A program made the translations under genes and the position numbers. A stretch of 64,000 bases of DNA from positions 1 through 64,000 of the forward strand of contig JAFQBK010000006.1 in NCBI GenBank assembly GCA_017399695.1. The letters are read 5' to 3'. Shown one piece after another: positions 28,921 to 47,263 of this stretch (position 1 is its first letter; every line of letters starts with the position of its first letter). The DNA comes from Clostridia bacterium. Lineage in GTDB: Bacteria > Bacillota > Clostridia > UBA1381 > UBA9506. Under the pieces are notes generated by a model. That model saw only the letters and a list, made by a program, of their open reading frames with translations. It did not search any database and was not told where the DNA came from.

Positions 28921-29066
28921 AAAAACCTTTAAATCGGTACAGAGATGCTGATAAGGTGTGGTTAATTTCATACTGCTTGCGGGCGGAGTGCATCCTTGGG
29001 TGCGCAAAAAGTCTGTATGTTGTTTTGTAAACACACTCTTATCACACAGTGGTAAGAGTTTTTTTA
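28921..29066 (+). promoter_or_regulatory. PyrR-binding attenuator
   Basis: The PyrR-binding loop is visible as ACAGAGATGCTGATAAGG (28939-28956) within an AACC...GGTT stem, close to the known consensus with CAGAGA and the GCUG-AAGG side. The terminator is 29035-29045 paired with 29049-29059 (11 bp, G-U tolerant), followed by eight T. UMP/UTP-bound PyrR would free the terminator and stop pyr transcription; this mechanism is established for the family. Confidence 0.85.
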
Positions 29067-29098
29067 TACCCAAAATAAAGAAAAAGAGGGTGATTGCG

Positions 29099-29638
29099 GT
29101 GGAAACGCAATATGCGGAAATTATGGATAAGGAAGCGATGAAACGGGCAATTTCCCGTATCGCATATGAAATACTGGAAAAAAACAAGGGAACCGAAGAT
29201 TTGGCATTGGTTGGCATCTTACGCCGCGGCGTGGTGTTAGCTGAACGCTTAAAAACTCGTTTTTTAGAGATTGAAGGGGTCGATGTTCCGACGGGGGTGC
29301 TCGATATTACGAGATTTCGAGATGACCTGCCAAAGGGCGAGCGTGAGGGTTCCGTGAGTGGAACCCAGATTCCGTTTTCCGTTGAGAATAAAAAAATTGT
29401 GCTGGTAGACGATGTCTTATATACCGGGCGCACCGTGCGTGCCGCGATTGAGGCGATTATGGATATGGGCAGACCGGCAAAGATAGAGCTTGCGGTGATG
29501 ATTGACCGCGGGCACAGAGAACTTCCGATTCGAGCAGATTATGTCGGCAAGAACCTGCCGACCGCCAAAAGCGAAAGCGTCAAGGTCGAATTTTCCGAAT
29601 CGGGACAGAAAGAATGCGTCAGACTCAGAAAAGATTAG
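29099..29638 (+). CDS. pyrR: PyrR, pyrimidine operon attenuation protein
   Basis: 179-aa bifunctional regulator and uracil phosphoribosyltransferase that binds pyr leader RNA when charged with UMP. The PRPP-binding signature [12 protein letters not shown] is at 101-112. [24 protein letters not shown] and [13 protein letters not shown] are all family hallmarks. I take GTG at 29099 as start behind AGAGGGTGA; a GTG three codons earlier is also in frame. It is the first gene of the operon, right after the attenuator it is expected to control. pyrB follows 12 bp later. Confidence 0.95.
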
Positions 29639-29650
29639 GAGGAAGCATCC

Positions 29651-30580
29651 ATGCAGTTTCATCACAAGGATTTGTTGGGATTAAAAGAACTTTCCAAAGA
29701 GGAAATTTTGTCGATTCTGCGCCATGCACAGACGATGAAAGAAATCCTGATGCAGGATTCTAAAAAGACACCGCATCTGCAGGGAAAGTCAGTTGTTACA
29801 CTGTTTTATGAAAACAGCACGAGAACGAGAATGTCGTTTGAACTCGCATCCAAATATATGAGCGCCAATGCAGCAAACATTACGGCAAGCGGTTCTTCCG
29901 TTGCCAAGGGAGAAAGCCTCATCGATACGGCGCGTACCCTTGACCGGATGGGAACGGATGTCATTATCGTGCGCCATTCTTCCTCCGGTGCACCGCATCT
30001 GATTGCGCGGAACGTAAAAGCATCGGTGATTAACGCCGGTGACGGCATGAACGAGCATCCGACACAGGCGCTTCTCGATATGTTCACAATGATGGAGAAA
30101 AAAGGAAGCATCGAGGGCTTAAAGGTTGCGATTGTTGGTGATGTCAAGCACAGCCGTGTGGTTCGTTCCAACATTTATGGTTTGACAAAGCTGGGCGCAG
30201 AGGTTTCGGTTGGCGGCCCGTCAACCCTGATGCCGCCGGATATGGATAAGCTGGGTGTTTCGGTCTACCACAGCGTGGACGAGGCGATGATGGACGCTGA
30301 TGTGGTGATGGGATTAAGAATTCAGCAGGAACGTCAGAAAAGCGGTCTTCTGCCGAGCCTTCGTGAGTATCACAGATTCTTCGGAATTGACGAAAAACGC
30401 CTAAAATGTGCCAAACCGGATGCACTCTTAATGCATCCCGGACCGGTCAACCGCGGTGTCGAGCTGACCAGCGGCGTAATGGAGCTTGACCGTTGCTTTA
30501 TCGATGAGCAGGTCACCAACGGCGTTGCCGTTCGTATGGCGATCTTAAACATTTTGACCAGAGGAGGACGCGTAGAGTGA
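29651..30580 (+). CDS. pyrB: Aspartate carbamoyltransferase, catalytic subunit
   Basis: 309-aa enzyme joining carbamoyl phosphate and aspartate to carbamoyl aspartate. The carbamoyl-phosphate motif STRTR is at 56-60, the lysine loop is in SSVAKGES, and the HPTQ motif is at 136-139. [16 protein letters not shown] and [10 protein letters not shown] are the aspartate-domain hallmarks, and [11 protein letters not shown] is near the end. No regulatory chain gene (pyrI) follows, as expected for Firmicutes, so it should be a simple trimer. TAGGAGG lies before the ATG, overlapping the pyrR stop. pyrC overlaps its stop by GTGA. Confidence 0.97.
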
Positions 30581-31863
30581 AAATATTGATTCAAGGCGGT
30601 CGTGTGATTGACCCGAAAACCAATACCGATAAAAAAGCAGATGTTTATATAGAAAACGGCGTGATTTCTGCCATTGGCGAAAATCTTGCAGCAAGCGATG
30701 CAGTAGTCATCAAAGCGGAAGGCAAAGTAGTTGCCCCCGGACTTTTGGATATGCACTGCCATCTGCGTGACCCGGGACAGGAATATAAAGAAGATATCGA
30801 AAGCGGAACGAAATCTGCGGCAAAGGGCGGCTTTACTTCGGTTGCCTGTATGCCGAACACCTCTCCGGTGATTGACAATGCTCCGTTGGTTGAGTATATC
30901 TTAAACAAAGCGCAGAAGGTCGGAAAAGTCAATGTCTTCCCGATTGGTGCAGTTACCAAGGGACTGGCAGGCGAGGTGTTAGCTGATATCGGCGAGCTTA
31001 AATTTGCCGGTGCGGTTGCTATTTCTGATGATGGCAAACCGGTGCAGAATGCAAACCTGATGCGAAGAGCATTAGAATATTCTTCGATGTTTGATATCCC
31101 CGTGCTTTCCCATTGTGAAGAGAAGGAACTGTTAGACGGCGGCGTAATGAACGAGGGATACATGTCCACCTATTTAGGGCTTAAGGGCATCTCCAATGCG
31201 GTGGAGGATGTACAGATTGCAAGAGATATTATCTTAGCAGAAACGACAGGAACGAAAGTTCATATCTGCCACGTCAGCACCAAGGGCGGTGTGGAACTCA
31301 TCCGAAACGCAAAGGCGCGTGGTGTTCGCGTGACCTGCGAAACCTGCCCGCATTACTTCTCTTTGACCGAGGCGGCAGTCGAGGGCTTTAACACCAACGC
31401 AAAGATGAATCCTCCGCTTCGTACGCAGGCGGATGTCGATGCAGTGATTGAGGGTCTCGTTGATGGCACGATTGATGTCATCGCAACTGACCACGCACCG
31501 CACCATATTGATGAGAAAAATCTGGAGTTTGACCAGGCATTAAACGGCATCGTCGGTTTTGAAACCGCCCTCAGCCTTGGCATTACCTATCTAGTGAAAA
31601 CAGGTAAGTTAACGCTCATAGAGCTTCTTCGCAAAATGACGGTCAACCCTGCAGCAATCCTTTCTCTTGCTAAAGGCGAGATTTCAGAAAATAAGGTGGC
31701 GGATGTGATTGTCTTTAACCCCGAGGAAGAATATACCGTAGATGTAAAAAGCTTTGCTACAAAATCAAAGAATTCGCCGTATGACGGTTACCGTTTGCAT
31801 GGTAAGGTAGAGTATACTATCGTTGGCGGTGAGCTTATCGTAGCAGAGGGTGAATTATTATAA
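30577..31863 (+). CDS. pyrC: Dihydroorotase
   Basis: 428-aa zinc amidohydrolase of the class I type, cyclising carbamoyl aspartate to dihydroorotate. The metal motif [10 protein letters not shown] (His60, His62) is near the start. [17 protein letters not shown] follows, and the later metal ligands are in HICHVST and [16 protein letters not shown]-type sequence appears as [13 protein letters not shown]. The GTG start overlaps the pyrB stop (GTGA), with GAGGAGG upstream, so translation is coupled. It is followed by pyrF after a 19-base gap. Confidence 0.96.
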
Positions 31864-31882
31864 ATCGCAGGAGGATATAGAG

Positions 31883-32800
31883 ATGTCAATGGATGCACTG
31901 ATTGAAAAAATAAAAGAGACAGGCAACCCGACCGTTGCAGGTCTTGACCCGAAACTGGACTATGTTCCTGAATTTATTAAGGAAGAAGCATACGACACTT
32001 ACGGCAAAAACGCCAAGGGTGCGGCGAAAGCACTTTTAGCGTTTAATAAAGGCTTAATGGACGAGCTTTCCGGCATTGTTCCTGCAGTGAAGCCGCAGAT
32101 GGCATACTATGAGATGTATGGTTTAGAGGGTCTTATGGCACTTTCTGAAACCGTCAGCTATGCAAAGGAAAAAGGATTTTATGTGATTTTAGACGGCAAG
32201 CGTAACGATATCGGCTCCACTGCAGAGGCATACGCAGAAGCATACCTCGGCGAATCGAAGATTGATGCAGACACGACCTGGACCGATTTTCCTGCCGATG
32301 CACTCACGGTTAACCCGTATCTCGGAACAGATGGCGTTTTGCCGTTTGTCAAGCAGTGCGAGGACAGAGATAAGGGCATTTTCGTTTTGGTTAAAACCTC
32401 GAACCCGTCCTCTGGTGAATTCCAGGACCTTGTGATTGACGGACAGACGCTTTATGAGCGTGTGGCAACGCTAGTCAACCGTTGGGGTATGAGTACGGTT
32501 GGAAAAACCGGTTATTCGGGAGTGGGCGCTGTAGTTGGCGCAACCTATCCGCAGCAGATTGAAGACCTTAGAAAGCTGATGCCGAATACGTATTTCTTAG
32601 TACCCGGCTATGGAGCACAGGGCGGAAAAGCAGAGGATGTAGCCAAAGCATTTAACGCAGACGGACTCGGCGCAATCATCAATGCGTCCCGTTCCATTAT
32701 GTGCGCTTATAAAAAAGCAGGAGCGCCGGAGGCTGACTTTGCAAAAGCTGCAAAGGAAGAGGCTCTGCGTATGAAATATGATATTATTCGGTTCATATAA
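31883..32800 (+). CDS. pyrF: Orotidine 5'-phosphate decarboxylase, type 2
   Basis: 305-aa enzyme converting OMP to UMP. This is the long type 2 form: NPTVAGLDPKLDYVPEF near the start, and the active-site DGKRNDIGS at 104-112 (Lys106 with the catalytic aspartates). ALTVNPYLGTDGVLPF and LVKTSNPSSGEFQ follow, and LVPGYGAQGG is the phosphate loop. AGGAGGAT supports the ATG at 31883, and a further ATG two codons on is weaker. pyrE, its usual partner, is not here but at 46.6 kb on the other strand. Confidence 0.96.
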   Translation: MSMDALIEKIKETGNPTVAGLDPKLDYVPEFIKEEAYDTYGKNAKGAAKALLAFNKGLMDELSGIVPAVKPQMAYYEMYGLEGLMALSETVSYAKEKGFYVILDGKRNDIGSTAEAYAEAYLGESKIDADTTWTDFPADALTVNPYLGTDGVLPFVKQCEDRDKGIFVLVKTSNPSSGEFQDLVIDGQTLYERVATLVNRWGMSTVGKTGYSGVGAVVGATYPQQIEDLRKLMPNTYFLVPGYGAQGGKAEDVAKAFNADGLGAIINASRSIMCAYKKAGAPEADFAKAAKEEALRMKYDIIRFI

Positions 32801-32842
32801 CGAAAAACAACGGTCTTATATAAAACCAAGGGAGGAATCAGT

Positions 32843-33919
32843 TTGAAACAGGCATATTTGGTGCTGGAGGACGGAACCGTTTTCGAGGGAGAGTCTTTTG
32901 GCGCAGAGGGAGAAACCATTGGTGAGGTTGTATTCACGACCGGCATGGTAGGGTATCAGGAGGAACTCACGGACCCCGCTTTTTCCGGAATGATTGTGAT
33001 GAGAACGTATCCGCTGACGGGTAATTACGGCGTCAACAGCGAGGATAACGAGTCAGATAAAACTTCGGTCCGCGGGTTGATTATCAAAGAGGCAGCGCTC
33101 TGTCCGAATAATTTCCGCTCGGAGGGAACCATTGAAGATTATCTTGTAAAAAACAATATTATTGCCATTACGGGCATTGATACCCGTGCGCTGACCCGAA
33201 AGCTCCGCGACGAGGGCGCAATGAACGGCATGATTACGACCGATAGCAACTTTGATTTTGAAAAACGCAAGGATGAAATCAAAGCATACGAGATCAGCGC
33301 AGATATGAAGGAATACAGCACAAAGGAAATTGATACCAAAGGAAACGGAACATATAAAGTCGCTGTGTTAGACATTGGAACTAAGCACAGCTTGATTGAG
33401 AATCTCATAGCGCACGATATGACAGTTACGGTGTATCCGGCAGATGCGAGCGCAGAAGAAATCTTAAAGAGAAGTCCCGACGGGATTGTGATTTCCGATG
33501 GCACAGGAAACCCCAAAGACTATGAGGGGATTTTGGATACGGTAAAAGAACTGCTTACCTCCAAACTCCCGATGATGGGTGTGGGCATGGGACATCTTTT
33601 GATGGCAAAAGCGAGTGGTGCAAGCCTTTTGAAAATGAAGTTTGGTCATCGTGGTGCCAACCAGCCGGTCAAGGACTTAGCAAGCGGTCGTACCTATATT
33701 ACCACACAGAATCACGGCTATGTTGTGGATAAGGATAGCGTACCGACAGATGTAATGGAAATTTCGCATATCAATATCAATGATGAAAGTGTCGAGGGAC
33801 TTCGCTTTCTAAACCAAAAGGCATACACCATGGCGTTTTCTCCTGATGCTGCGCGTGGCGTGCATACGACGGAGTATATGGTCAGCCGTTTGACAGAAAT
33901 GATGGGAGGAAACAAATAA
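32843..33919 (+). CDS. carA: Carbamoyl phosphate synthase small subunit, catalytic triad lost
   Basis: 358-aa CarA, normally the glutaminase that feeds ammonia to CarB. The N-terminal domain is ordinary (YLVLEDGTVFEGESFG, GYQEELTDPAF, TGIDTRALTRKLRDEGAMNG). The glutaminase domain keeps its length and fold landmarks (MKFGHRGANQPVKDL, QNHGYVVD) but lacks the active site. The nucleophile elbow reads GVGMGH with Gly248 in place of Cys, and the His-Pro-Glu pair reads Ser333-Pro-Asp335. The SNGPGDP loop reads SDGTGNP (218-224). The frame is intact. It starts at TTG behind GGAGGA, and its stop overlaps carB by one base. It probably serves as a structural subunit of an ammonia-dependent enzyme. Confidence 0.93.
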   Translation: MKQAYLVLEDGTVFEGESFGAEGETIGEVVFTTGMVGYQEELTDPAFSGMIVMRTYPLTGNYGVNSEDNESDKTSVRGLIIKEAALCPNNFRSEGTIEDYLVKNNIIAITGIDTRALTRKLRDEGAMNGMITTDSNFDFEKRKDEIKAYEISADMKEYSTKEIDTKGNGTYKVAVLDIGTKHSLIENLIAHDMTVTVYPADASAEEILKRSPDGIVISDGTGNPKDYEGILDTVKELLTSKLPMMGVGMGHLLMAKASGASLLKMKFGHRGANQPVKDLASGRTYITTQNHGYVVDKDSVPTDVMEISHININDESVEGLRFLNQKAYTMAFSPDAARGVHTTEYMVSRLTEMMGGNK

Positions 33920-36900
33920 TGCCGAAGAGAGAAGATGTAAAAAAAGTATTGGTTATCGGCTCCGGCCCGATTGTCATCGGACAGGCGGCAGAATTTGACT
34001 ACGCAGGTACACAGGCGTGCCGTGCGCTCAAAGAAGAAGGCTTAGAGGTTGTCTTAATCAACTCCAACCCCGCAACCATCATGACGGATAAAATGATGGC
34101 GGATAAAATCTATATCGAGCCATTAGTTGCCGATGTGGTGAAAAAGATTATAGAAATTGAAAAACCCGACAGTATCCTCCCGACCTTAGGCGGCCAGACG
34201 GGCTTAAACCTTGCCATGGAGTTGGCAGAGGAAGGCTATCTTGACAAGATGGGTGTAAAGCTTTTGGGAACGGCTACCTCTGCAATTAAAATGGCAGAAG
34301 ACCGTCAGGAATTTAAGGACACGATGGAGTCCATCGGTGAGCCGTGTATCGCATCCAAAGTGGTTGATACCTATGAGGATGCACTTTCCTTTGCGAAAGA
34401 AATTGGTTTTCCGGTCATCGTGCGTCCGGCATATACCCTGGGTGGTACCGGCGGCGGTATCGCATATACCGAGGCTGACCTTGAGGAAATCGCACCGAAC
34501 GGGCTTAGACTATCTCGTGTGCATCAGGTACTGATTGAAAAATGTATCTCCGGTTGGAAAGAGATTGAGTTTGAGGTTATCCGTGATGCCAAGGGCAACG
34601 CAATTACTGTTTGCTCGATGGAAAACATTGACCCTGTCGGTATCCATACGGGTGATTCTATCGTTGTCGCTCCGGCGCAGACCCTTTCCACAAAAGAATA
34701 TCAGATGCTTCGTAATGCATCCTTAAATATCATCAACGCACTCGGCATTGAGGGCGGTTGTAACTGCCAGTTTGCACTGCATCCAGACAGCTTAGAGTAT
34801 GCGGTCATCGAGGTAAATCCGCGTGTGTCTCGTTCATCGGCACTGGCATCCAAAGCAACCGGCTATCCGATTGCAAAGGTAACCTCTAAAATCGCCATCG
34901 GCTACAGCCTTGACGAAATTAAAAATGCCGTTACTGGAACGACTTTCGCTTGCTTTGAGCCGACCATTGACTATGTGGTCATTAAGTTCCCGAAATGGCC
35001 GTTTGATAAGTTTGTAAAGGCAAAGAGAACGCTCGGCACGCAGATGAAAGCAACCGGCGAAATTATGGCAATTTCCGATTCCATCGAGGGAGGACTTATG
35101 AAATCTGTTCGCTCGCTCGAACTCGGACTTCACAGCTTTGAAATGCCGAAGCTGAAGAATCTGCCGAAGAAAGAAATTGAAAAACGTCTGTCGGCAGTTG
35201 ATGATGAGCGTATGTTTGTCATCTGTGAGGCAATCCGCCGTGGTATTTCGCTGGACACCATTCACGAAATTACAATGATTGATATTTTCTTCTTAGATAA
35301 GCTCAAAAATATCGTAGAGATGGAAAACATCTTAAAGGAGGGCAATCTTTCCCGTGGCATTTTAGCCAAGGCAAAGCGTATGGGCTTTGTTGATAAGACC
35401 ATCGCGGCGTTTTCCGGTATGAAAGAAGAGGAAATCAAGGCTCTGCGCAGCCGCTACGGAATCCTTCCGACCTATAAGAAGGTTGACACCTGTGCAGCGG
35501 AGTTTGAGGCAGAAACTCCGTACTACTATTCTACCTATAACCAATTCTCCGAGGCGGCACCGTCTGACAAGAAAAAGATTTTGGTTATCGGCTCCGGTCC
35601 GATTCGTATCGGTCAGGGTATCGAGTTTGACTACTGCTCGGTTCATTCCGTATGGGCATTAAAAGAGGCGGGCTACGAAACCATTATTGTAAATAACAAT
35701 CCCGAAACCGTAAGTACCGACTTCGATACGGCAGACAAGCTCTATTTTGAGCCGCTGACCGCAGAAGATGTACAGAATATTGTTGAGATTGAAAAGCCGT
35801 ATGGCGCACTCGTTCAGTTCGGCGGTCAGACAGCAATCAAGCTGACACAAGCCCTCAAAGATATGGGCGTAAATATCCTCGGCACCAAAGCAGAAGATGT
35901 TGATGCGGCAGAGGACAGAGAACTGTTTGACGAGATTTTGGAAGAGTGCAATATTCCGCGTCCGGCAGGCAGAACGGTATTTACGCATCAGGAAGCATTA
36001 GAGGCAGCGAATGAGCTTGGCTATCCTGTGTTAGTTCGTCCGTCCTATGTGCTTGGCGGTCAGGGCATGGAAATTGCGTTTAACGACAATGATGTCAAGG
36101 AATTTATGGATATCATTACGCTGATTAAGCAGGAGCATCCGATTCTGGTTGACAAGTATATGATGGGTAAGGAACTTGAGGTTGATGCTATCTGTGATGG
36201 CGAGGATATCTTAATCCCCGGTATTATGGAGCATTTGGAGCGTGCAGGTGTGCACTCCGGCGACTCCATCTCGGTTTATCCGACACAGACGATTTCCCAA
36301 AAGCACAAGGATATTTTGGTTGACTACACGAAGAAGCTTGCCAAGGCACTCCATGTCGTTGGTCTTGTCAACATCCAGTTCGTGCTTTATGAGGATGAGG
36401 TGTATGTCATCGAGGTAAACCCGCGTTCCTCGCGTACCGTACCGTATATCTCCAAGGTAACCAATGTACCGATGGTAGACCTTGCAACGCGTTGCGTGCT
36501 CGGCGAGAAGTTAAAGGATATGGGTTGCGGAACGGGCTTGCATCCGGAGGGAGACTATGTTGCAGTCAAGGTTCCGGTGTTCTCGTTTGAAAAGCTTCAC
36601 GATGTTGATACTTCGCTCGGACCGGAAATGAAATCCACCGGTGAAGTTTTGGGTATCTCCAAGACCTTTGGTGAGGCGCTTTATAAGGGTCTTTTAGCTG
36701 CAGGCTTTAAGATGACAGCTGGCGGAAATGTCTTGATTACCGTCCGTGATAACGATAAGCGGGAGATGCTTGATATTGCCAAGAATTTTGAAGAAATGGG
36801 CTTTAATATTTACGCAACCGCAAACACCGCACATTACTTAAACAATAACTGTGTGGCAACGAGCGTGGTGAAGAAAATCGGCGAGGGTAGCCCTGACATT

Positions 36901-37116
36901 TTAGATTTAATGCAGGCAGGCAAGTTTGATATGGTCATCAATACGCCGACCCGTGGTCGTCAGCCGGGCAGAGACGGATTTAAGATTCGCCGTAAGACGG
37001 TGGAACATTCCATTCCGTGTCTGACTTCGCTCGATACGGCAAACGCTTATATCAAGAGCTTAAAATCGGGCGTATCCAGAGAAGAACTCAATATGGTTGA
37101 TTTAAGAGATGTATAA
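33919..37116 (+). CDS. carB: Carbamoyl phosphate synthase large subunit
   Basis: 1065-aa synthetase making carbamoyl phosphate from bicarbonate, ATP and ammonia. Two homologous ATP-grasp halves are clear: VLVIGSGPIVIGQAAEFDYAG at the start and VIGSGPIRIGQGIEFDYCS at about residue 557. Each is followed by the PTLGGQTGLN / VQFGGQTAIK motif and a glycine-rich ATP loop (RPAYTLGGTGGG, RPSYVLGGQGM). EVNPRVSRSSAL and EVNPRSSRTVPY are the metal-site repeats. The C-terminal MGS-like allosteric domain (FEEMGFNIYATANTAHYL, TPTRGRQPGRDGFKIRR) is complete. Length is normal. It ends the operon at a strong terminator. Confidence 0.97.
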   Translation: MPKREDVKKVLVIGSGPIVIGQAAEFDYAGTQACRALKEEGLEVVLINSNPATIMTDKMMADKIYIEPLVADVVKKIIEIEKPDSILPTLGGQTGLNLAMELAEEGYLDKMGVKLLGTATSAIKMAEDRQEFKDTMESIGEPCIASKVVDTYEDALSFAKEIGFPVIVRPAYTLGGTGGGIAYTEADLEEIAPNGLRLSRVHQVLIEKCISGWKEIEFEVIRDAKGNAITVCSMENIDPVGIHTGDSIVVAPAQTLSTKEYQMLRNASLNIINALGIEGGCNCQFALHPDSLEYAVIEVNPRVSRSSALASKATGYPIAKVTSKIAIGYSLDEIKNAVTGTTFACFEPTIDYVVIKFPKWPFDKFVKAKRTLGTQMKATGEIMAISDSIEGGLMKSVRSLELGLHSFEMPKLKNLPKKEIEKRLSAVDDERMFVICEAIRRGISLDTIHEITMIDIFFLDKLKNIVEMENILKEGNLSRGILAKAKRMGFVDKTIAAFSGMKEEEIKALRSRYGILPTYKKVDTCAAEFEAETPYYYSTYNQFSEAAPSDKKKILVIGSGPIRIGQGIEFDYCSVHSVWALKEAGYETIIVNNNPETVSTDFDTADKLYFEPLTAEDVQNIVEIEKPYGALVQFGGQTAIKLTQALKDMGVNILGTKAEDVDAAEDRELFDEILEECNIPRPAGRTVFTHQEALEAANELGYPVLVRPSYVLGGQGMEIAFNDNDVKEFMDIITLIKQEHPILVDKYMMGKELEVDAICDGEDILIPGIMEHLERAGVHSGDSISVYPTQTISQKHKDILVDYTKKLAKALHVVGLVNIQFVLYEDEVYVIEVNPRSSRTVPYISKVTNVPMVDLATRCVLGEKLKDMGCGTGLHPEGDYVAVKVPVFSFEKLHDVDTSLGPEMKSTGEVLGISKTFGEALYKGLLAAGFKMTAGGNVLITVRDNDKREMLDIAKNFEEMGFNIYATANTAHYLNNNCVATSVVKKIGEGSPDILDLMQAGKFDMVINTPTRGRQPGRDGFKIRRKTVEHSIPCLTSLDTANAYIKSLKSGVSREELNMVDLRDV

Positions 37117-46646: not shown

Positions 46647-47228
46647 TCAAACTTTAAGTGCGCGGCTGCCCGGCTTGACAAGTGGCAGACCCTCTTTGCA
46701 CAGAGGACATTCATCTGCTTCGTAAGAAATAACTTCCATAGAAATTACGGATTCGAGCGAAACACCGAAATCGATTTTTCCGCCGGTACGGTCAACAATT
46801 ACACCAAGACCGACAACCTCGCCGCCGTTCTTTCTTACAATATCAATCACCTCGCGGACAGAACCGCCGGTGGTTACAACATCCTCTACGACCAAGACCT
46901 TCTGTCCCGGCTCAATGGTAAAACCGCGTCTTAAGGTCATTTCCCCATTTTCACGTTCAGCAAAGATATTCTTTACGCCTAAATGACGGGATACTTCATA
47001 GCTCATTTGGATTGCGCCAATGGCAGGTCCGATGACCAGCTCAACGCCCTTATCCTGAAATTTTTCAGCAAGTGCTGCACAGAGCTCTTCGCTGTATTTC
47101 GTGTGCTGGAAAATTTTTGCACACTGCATGTACTTATCCGAGTGACGACCGGAGGTCAGAAGAAAATGTCCTTCCTGCAGAACACCGGCTTCTTTTAAGA
47201 CTTCCAAAACTCTTTCTTTTGTGATCAT
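46647..47228 (-). CDS. pyrE: Orotate phosphoribosyltransferase
   Basis: 193-aa enzyme joining orotate to PRPP to make OMP. The PRPP motif [13 protein letters not shown] is clear, with [16 protein letters not shown] near the start and [19 protein letters not shown] as the middle signature. The C-terminal [15 protein letters not shown] is typical of the type found in Clostridia and archaea. AAAGGATG supports the ATG at 47228. It is separate from the main pyr operon and shows no PyrR-type attenuator in its short leader. radC follows in the same unit. Confidence 0.95.
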
Positions 47229-47263
47229 GGAATTCATCCTTTCATTTTATGTCTATCATTTCT

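Follow-up and report, generated by a model that had tools for sequence, protein, structure and literature searches.

Loss of the glutaminase active site in a bacterial carbamoyl-phosphate synthetase small subunit and its relatives suggests nucleotide synthesis on free ammonia

The pyrimidine biosynthesis genes of the Clostridia bacterium studied here are organised in an intact pyr operon with the order pyrR-pyrB-pyrC-pyrF-carA-carB. The operon lies on the forward strand of the window, which is the whole stretch of DNA that was analysed (positions 1 to 64,000 of contig JAFQBK010000006.1, 64,000 nucleotides, genome G000). It starts with the operon regulator/uracil phosphoribosyltransferase gene pyrR (28958..29638; NCBIfam NF003549, 240.7 bits), for which the alignment begins at residue 50, so that the true start is probably downstream of the ORF start. 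This gene is followed by pyrB for aspartate carbamoyltransferase (29651..30580; NCBIfam NF002032, 402.9 bits), pyrC for dihydroorotase (30577..31863; TIGR00857, 442 bits) and pyrF for orotidine-5'-phosphate decarboxylase (31850..32800; TIGR02127, 279.8 bits). The orotate phosphoribosyltransferase gene pyrE is located apart from the operon on the reverse strand (46647..47237; TIGR01367, 236 bits).

The last two genes of the operon encode the small and the large subunit of carbamoyl-phosphate synthetase (CPS). Both are on the forward strand and overlap by one base, position 33919, at which the carA stop codon ends. The large subunit gene carB (33919..37116; TIGR01369, 1526 bits) is apparently normal: its product aligned to E. 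coli CarB over residues 1-1053 with the key residues kept, including the ammonia-gate residues C232/A251/A314 (E. coli numbering, transferred by this alignment), which match those named in the CPS1 structure paper (PMC4655335). The small subunit gene carA (32843..33919) uses a TTG start codon, is preceded by the Shine-Dalgarno sequence AAGGGAGG (32828..32835, forward strand) and encodes 358 amino acids. By homology the protein is a CarA, with the N-terminal CPSase_sm_chain domain present (PF00988, 173.8 bits, cut-off 27) and a TIGR01368 score of 399.5 bits. An AlphaFold2 (AF2) model built from the family alignment (mean pLDDT 87.8) showed the two-domain CarA fold. Its nearest structure was E. 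coli CarA 1cs0_B (TM 0.94, whole length aligned), and the second-best match was PDB 1c30, the C269S mutant of E. coli CarA.

Despite this fold, the Cys-His-Glu triad of the glutamine-hydrolyzing enzymes (CPS II) is absent. Alignment to E. coli CarA revealed that the nucleophile elbow GICLGHQ is replaced by GVGMGHL (33578..33598), in which Gly248 (codon GGC, 33584-33586) occupies the position of Cys269. Further downstream, Ser333-Pro-Asp335 (TCT CCT GAT, 33839..33847) stands at the position of His353-Pro-Glu355, and the loop that reads SNGPGDP in intact CarA is SDGTGNP (residues 218-224, 33494..33514). In addition, E. coli Gln273 of the elbow corresponds to Leu252 and E. coli Ser47 to Ala46, while Gly241, Asn311 and other pocket residues are still present. 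The original prediction had named the altered elbow, the Ser-Pro-Asp replacement and the changed loop and had described an intact frame with preserved fold, length and operon position next to a normal carB; each of these residues and codons was confirmed, and the description of the surroundings held as well. The corresponding NCBIfam model calls this dead CarA 'glutamine-hydrolyzing' with a score above the cut-off. Judged from the sequence and the AF2 model, without an enzyme assay, it is likely that catalysis is gone and that the fold and the partner are retained.

A glutaminase that persists through a non-canonical site could in principle make use of Asp335 as an acid together with Gly241, Asn311 and the other remaining pocket residues. 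We consider this highly improbable: the window CarA has other residues at all three catalytic positions as well as at those of Gln273 and Ser47, and related proteins differ in their replacements, which are chemically unrelated and resemble relaxed constraint rather than a new site.

A second, normal carA in the same genome would have refuted the original prediction. The assembly (1.69 Mb, 17 contigs, 86.8% complete) contains a single match to the CPSase small-subunit N-domain, and a family search within these limits found no second carA.

To map the loss of the three residues, we aligned CarA proteins and reconstructed a CarA tree. The genome collection provided 80 named CarA relatives, and the elbow and histidine motifs are intact in 78 of them. 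Only L102 (GIGLGHQ, FRPD) and L147 (GCGLGHQ, FMPN), both from uncultured Clostridia-type MAGs, deviate clearly; three lactic-type sequences have HPD in place of HPE with Cys and His kept. In the window's own order, 95 genomes were searched and CarA was found in 83. The full triad was present in 57 of these 83 rows, and both counts show that its positions are by no means free to vary. It was broken in the other 26 rows, where the Cys is replaced by Gly (13), Ala (4), Ser (3) or Asp (1); the remaining five retain the Cys without the Glu or the His and might possibly hold some activity. All of these genomes are drafts, and the states of CarA, GuaA and PyrG were read for this set and not for all Clostridia.

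On the CarA tree, we counted a minimum of 12 changes in the Cys state, towards Gly, Ser, Ala or Asp, and a minimum of 11 in the triad state. Most of the triad changes are interpreted as losses because regain of a lost triad is unlikely. The tree was a quick one from which the active-site columns were left out; branches of broken CarAs tend to be long, and the long branches L102 and L147 are unsurely placed. We infer from the tree that CarA was very likely broken in place many times, and thus the loss recurs across the order, which goes beyond the original prediction.

Sequencing or assembly error can be all but excluded as the origin of these changes. The only point in its favour is that the exact Gly/Ser/Asp triad occurs in the window genome alone. 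Against it, the gene contains neither a frameshift nor a stop, the changes are spread over four motifs, and separate genomes have lost residues in common (G013/G017, G014/G018, G006/G007 and G001/G002), which led us to reject this explanation.

The distribution of the changes within the protein was analysed for the columns that are conserved in intact CarA. In broken CarAs, 91% of these columns are kept in the N-domain and 74-79% in the glutamine amidotransferase (GATase) domain, compared with 19% for C269, 29% for H353 and 42% for E355. The pocket was not a focus of erosion, with 74% of its columns kept as against 79% of the remaining conserved GATase columns (p 0.54). Erosion is thus sharp at the triad and elsewhere spread across the GATase domain.

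To assess selection on the dead proteins, we calculated dN/dS by the Nei-Gojobori method. Six pairs of CarA-broken genomes gave values of 0.05-0.12 for the N-domain and 0.05-0.13 for the dead GATase domain, and pairs with intact CarA about 0.02-0.10, the corresponding range for the GATase domain being about 0.02-0.09. dS was high in several pairs, and two further, more distant broken pairs were saturated or had high dS. As the window CarA has no close relative for a dN/dS estimate of its own, the evidence for selection comes from the relatives; its identity to CarA of the intact congener G003 amounts to 69% for the N-domain and 57% for the GATase domain. When neutral drift to a similar divergence was simulated, just 4 of 300 runs remained stop-free. 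The dead GATase domain is therefore under purifying selection in the relatives and not part of a pseudogene, and pseudogene decay was rejected on the basis of dN/dS and simulation.

These data also bear on the possibility that carAB is decaying and non-functional and that the cells rely on uracil salvage or pyrimidine import instead. The long branches of broken CarAs and the missing CTP synthase PyrG in several relatives would be compatible with such a scenario. Nevertheless, the low dN/dS values, the scarcity of stop-free neutral runs, the full-length CarB match with its key residues and the intact pyr operon speak against it, and we regard it as unlikely.

GMP synthetase (GuaA) shows a parallel loss. 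In CarA-broken genomes, GuaA either has about 330 amino acids and consists of the ATP-PPase and dimerisation parts only, or it carries a GATase remnant. The remnant-bearing proteins have about 440-458 amino acids and lack the nucleophile elbow; they were found in G001, in G002 and as a second copy in G003. In these intermediate forms (L287, L286 and L303, respectively), the rest of the active site is gone from the remnant as well. Both enzymes could be scored in 35 genomes: 17 combine a broken CarA with a GuaA without working GATase and 16 have both intact, while broken CarA with normal GuaA occurs twice and intact CarA with a lost GuaA GATase not at all (Fisher p 4e-8). The two genomes that break the pattern are G037, with 8% contamination, and G071, in which CarA is cut by a contig end. 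In a phylogeny-aware test, 4-5 independent, well-supported pairs agree and none oppose, although the sign test alone cannot reach 0.05 with this number.

The GATase-less GuaA proteins (L285, L288-L302) form one clade across three families of the order, and the branching within it departs from the families. This clade likely reflects horizontal spread, so the GATase was not lost independently each time. As for CarA, the GATase-less GuaA carries the NCBIfam label 'glutamine-hydrolyzing'. Near-complete genomes such as G015 (97% complete) and G012 (93%) showed no additional class I GATase that might act as the missing GuaA subunit.

In CarA-broken genomes, CTP synthase is affected in a similar way. 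Eight genomes of genus g6 encode a PyrG that has Ser or Gly in place of the catalytic Cys and retains His-Pro-Glu, and PyrG of G092 is Cys-less, too. CTP synthase (PF06418) was undetected in several genomes, including the near-complete G002 (96%), G012 (93%), G030 (91%) and G084 (92%), and also in the genomes of L102 and L147 and in the window genome. PyrG of G009 (L061, G009:C17) is eroded over its whole length in an open frame of 532 amino acids, with SGGAVSDFGKT instead of TGGVVSGLGKG in the N-terminal nucleotide-binding motif. For the window genome, a family search found neither GuaA nor PyrG, which may be a gap in the draft; co-loss in this organism is therefore inferred from its relatives.

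Other glutamine-dependent enzymes are retained. The HisH protein of the window genome has an intact GICLGM...FHPE site and is encoded beside a HisG-like ORF. Across the order, the HisH Cys was kept in all 23 genomes read and His and Glu in 22, with the gene in G072 being cut by a contig end. GlmS is kept, the catalytic Cys of PurF is kept in the genomes examined, and 34 of 35 genomes have a glutamine synthetase. This pattern argues against a general loss of glutamine use and indicates that nucleotide amination is affected.

Some details of these enzymes deserve mention in their own right. Neither type of glutamine synthetase was found in G012 (93% complete), which has kept HisH and PurF, and two glutamine synthetase matches contain one in-frame stop each (G083:C39:30126-31034, TGA; G031:C86:3346-4248, TAA). 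The PurF pocket motifs HVRYST and AHNGN are altered in several CarA-broken genomes (L345, L348, L352, L365, L339); PurF of the window genome (L345, contig C10) reads HVRDST and AYNGN with the catalytic Cys kept. Tyr74 or the His before Asn101, for which we take the numbering to be that of E. coli PurF, was changed in 7 of 11 CarA-broken and in 1 of 8 intact genomes. An erosion of the PurF pocket is possible, and these counts are merely suggestive. PurL was sought near purF and not found.

The retained glutaminases raise the question of whether one of them serves CarB. According to this explanation, ammonia would be delivered to CarB in trans by another cellular glutaminase and synthesis would still be fed by glutamine. 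The presence of glutamine synthetase and of intact glutaminases (HisH, the PurF Cys) would allow for it. However, apart from CarA, the search of the window genome yielded no class I GATase except the intact HisH, and the class I GATases of G015 (97% complete) are limited to CarA, PyrG and one 203-aa HisH. Furthermore, the parallel losses in GuaA and PyrG would each need a trans donor. The original prediction had left open a supply by another amidotransferase; no candidate emerged, and this route appears unlikely.

Its first reading, in which the enzyme depends on ammonia and CarA serves as a structural or channel subunit, has good support, with the activity itself inferred in the absence of an assay. 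The support comes from the single carA, the normal carB with its gate residues and the purifying selection in relatives, as well as from the many independent losses and the parallel loss of the GuaA and PyrG glutaminases.

Some relatives possess both kinds of enzyme. In G031, one contig carries a dead carA together with a carB of its own, and another carries an intact cluster of carB, carA, purF, pyrG, glmS and guaA (L397, G031:C33). The cluster in G083 (L398, G083:C39) reads glnA - ANTAR-type regulator - glnN - amtB/PII - asnB - guaA - gltB - gltD - pyrG; these gene names were assigned by sequence reading. Two GuaA forms occur in G003, G004, G031 and G083 and two PyrG forms in G093. Intact carA elsewhere in the order often adjoins an amtB-like gene, glnA-ANTAR or glnN. 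Broken carA lies in the pyr operon in the window, G001, G002, G014 and G018, as does the intact carA of G003. The dual sets would fit a putative conditional system, in which one set uses ammonia in times of plenty and the other uses glutamine in times of scarcity.

There is precedent for such chemistry in other organisms. In human CPS1, Ser has replaced the equivalent Cys and ammonia taken from solution is the only nitrogen source, and tunnel-blocked variants of the E. coli enzyme lose glutamine use with normal use of external ammonia (PMC4655335). The ATPPase unit of GMP synthetase can likewise use external ammonia (PMC10526850). Like the window CarA, vertebrate CPS I has kept the GATase fold after loss of the catalytic Cys. 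It works with free ammonia, which for the window CarAB is inferred, and has other altered glutamine-site residues (PMC4655335, PMC7657897). The two systems differ in several respects: GATase and synthetase are fused in vertebrates and encoded by separate carA and carB genes in a bacterial pyr operon here, the window CarA has lost all three triad residues, and vertebrate CPS I acts in the urea cycle and needs N-acetylglutamate. Moreover, the position of E. coli Gly293 is a tunnel-blocking Gln in CPS1 and still Gly in the window CarA (GHRGANQP) and in those broken relatives whose sequence extends to this motif. Compared with E. coli CarAB (CPS II), fold, length, operon partner and CarB gate residues are alike and the triad is missing, and in contrast to the engineered single change in E. 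coli C269S (1c30), the whole triad was lost naturally.

NadE type N, the single-domain, ammonia-dependent NAD synthetase, also dispenses with the glutaminase, and some genomes have both forms of NadE (PMC3376133). That survey, which covered about 800 prokaryotic genomes, recorded no instance of carAB, guaA or pyrG lacking a glutaminase component (PMC3376133 Table 1). It scored components and not residues, and dead CarAs could have counted as normal. In the literature searched, we found no prior report of a triad-less bacterial CarA or a GATase-less bacterial GuaA; most subscription papers were outside this search, and an earlier report may exist. Ammonia-specific CPS in vertebrates and ammonia-only NadE are known already, and the joint switch in nucleotide enzymes is the surprising part.

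While residue losses, recurrence, selection and co-occurrence are shown, the substrate, the ammonia route and the reason for the switch are inferred. With this reservation, CarAB is likely a functional CPS that works on free ammonia as part of a repeated, coordinated switch from glutamine to ammonia. In this model, CarA would not hydrolyse glutamine and would be retained since CarB depends on the N-terminal domain and on the folded shell of the GATase. CarAB would use bicarbonate, ATP and free ammonia to form carbamoyl phosphate, with ammonia passing from solution to the carboxyphosphate site either through the original tunnel or by a side entrance. As the E. coli Gly293 position is still Gly, this tunnel may have stayed open, and ammonia may enter it at the vacant active site. 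Amination by CarA, GuaA and PyrG would move to ammonia, and HisH, GlmS and probably PurF would stay glutamine-dependent; some relatives keep both enzyme kinds, with the glutamine-using copies often beside nitrogen-assimilation genes. L147, one of the two named relatives that show the trait, originates from water-deer colon, a habitat that is generally rich in ammonia.

A bolder reading, towards which the evidence tips by a narrow margin, is that the order has repeatedly and jointly abandoned glutamine for nucleotides (CarA, GuaA, PyrG). The routes would be point mutation, replacement by a GATase-less GuaA moving between families, and gene loss, and the dual sets of some relatives would allow nitrogen supply to be switched according to conditions.

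In nucleotide synthesis, glutamine is regarded as the almost universal amide donor. In many uncultured genomes, however, a broken CarA goes together with a GATase-less GuaA and a Cys-less or missing PyrG, a trait that the 'glutamine-hydrolyzing' labels on the dead proteins would hide. Although biochemistry is lacking, this bacterial group probably feeds nucleotide synthesis on free ammonia, which is not described for bacteria in the literature searched. If true, the order would offer a natural repeated experiment on why enzymes channel glutamine-derived ammonia and on the conditions under which they can give this up. It would also provide a bacterial counterpart to the way in which vertebrate CPS I arose, and a genomic marker of bacteria that rely on abundant ammonia.
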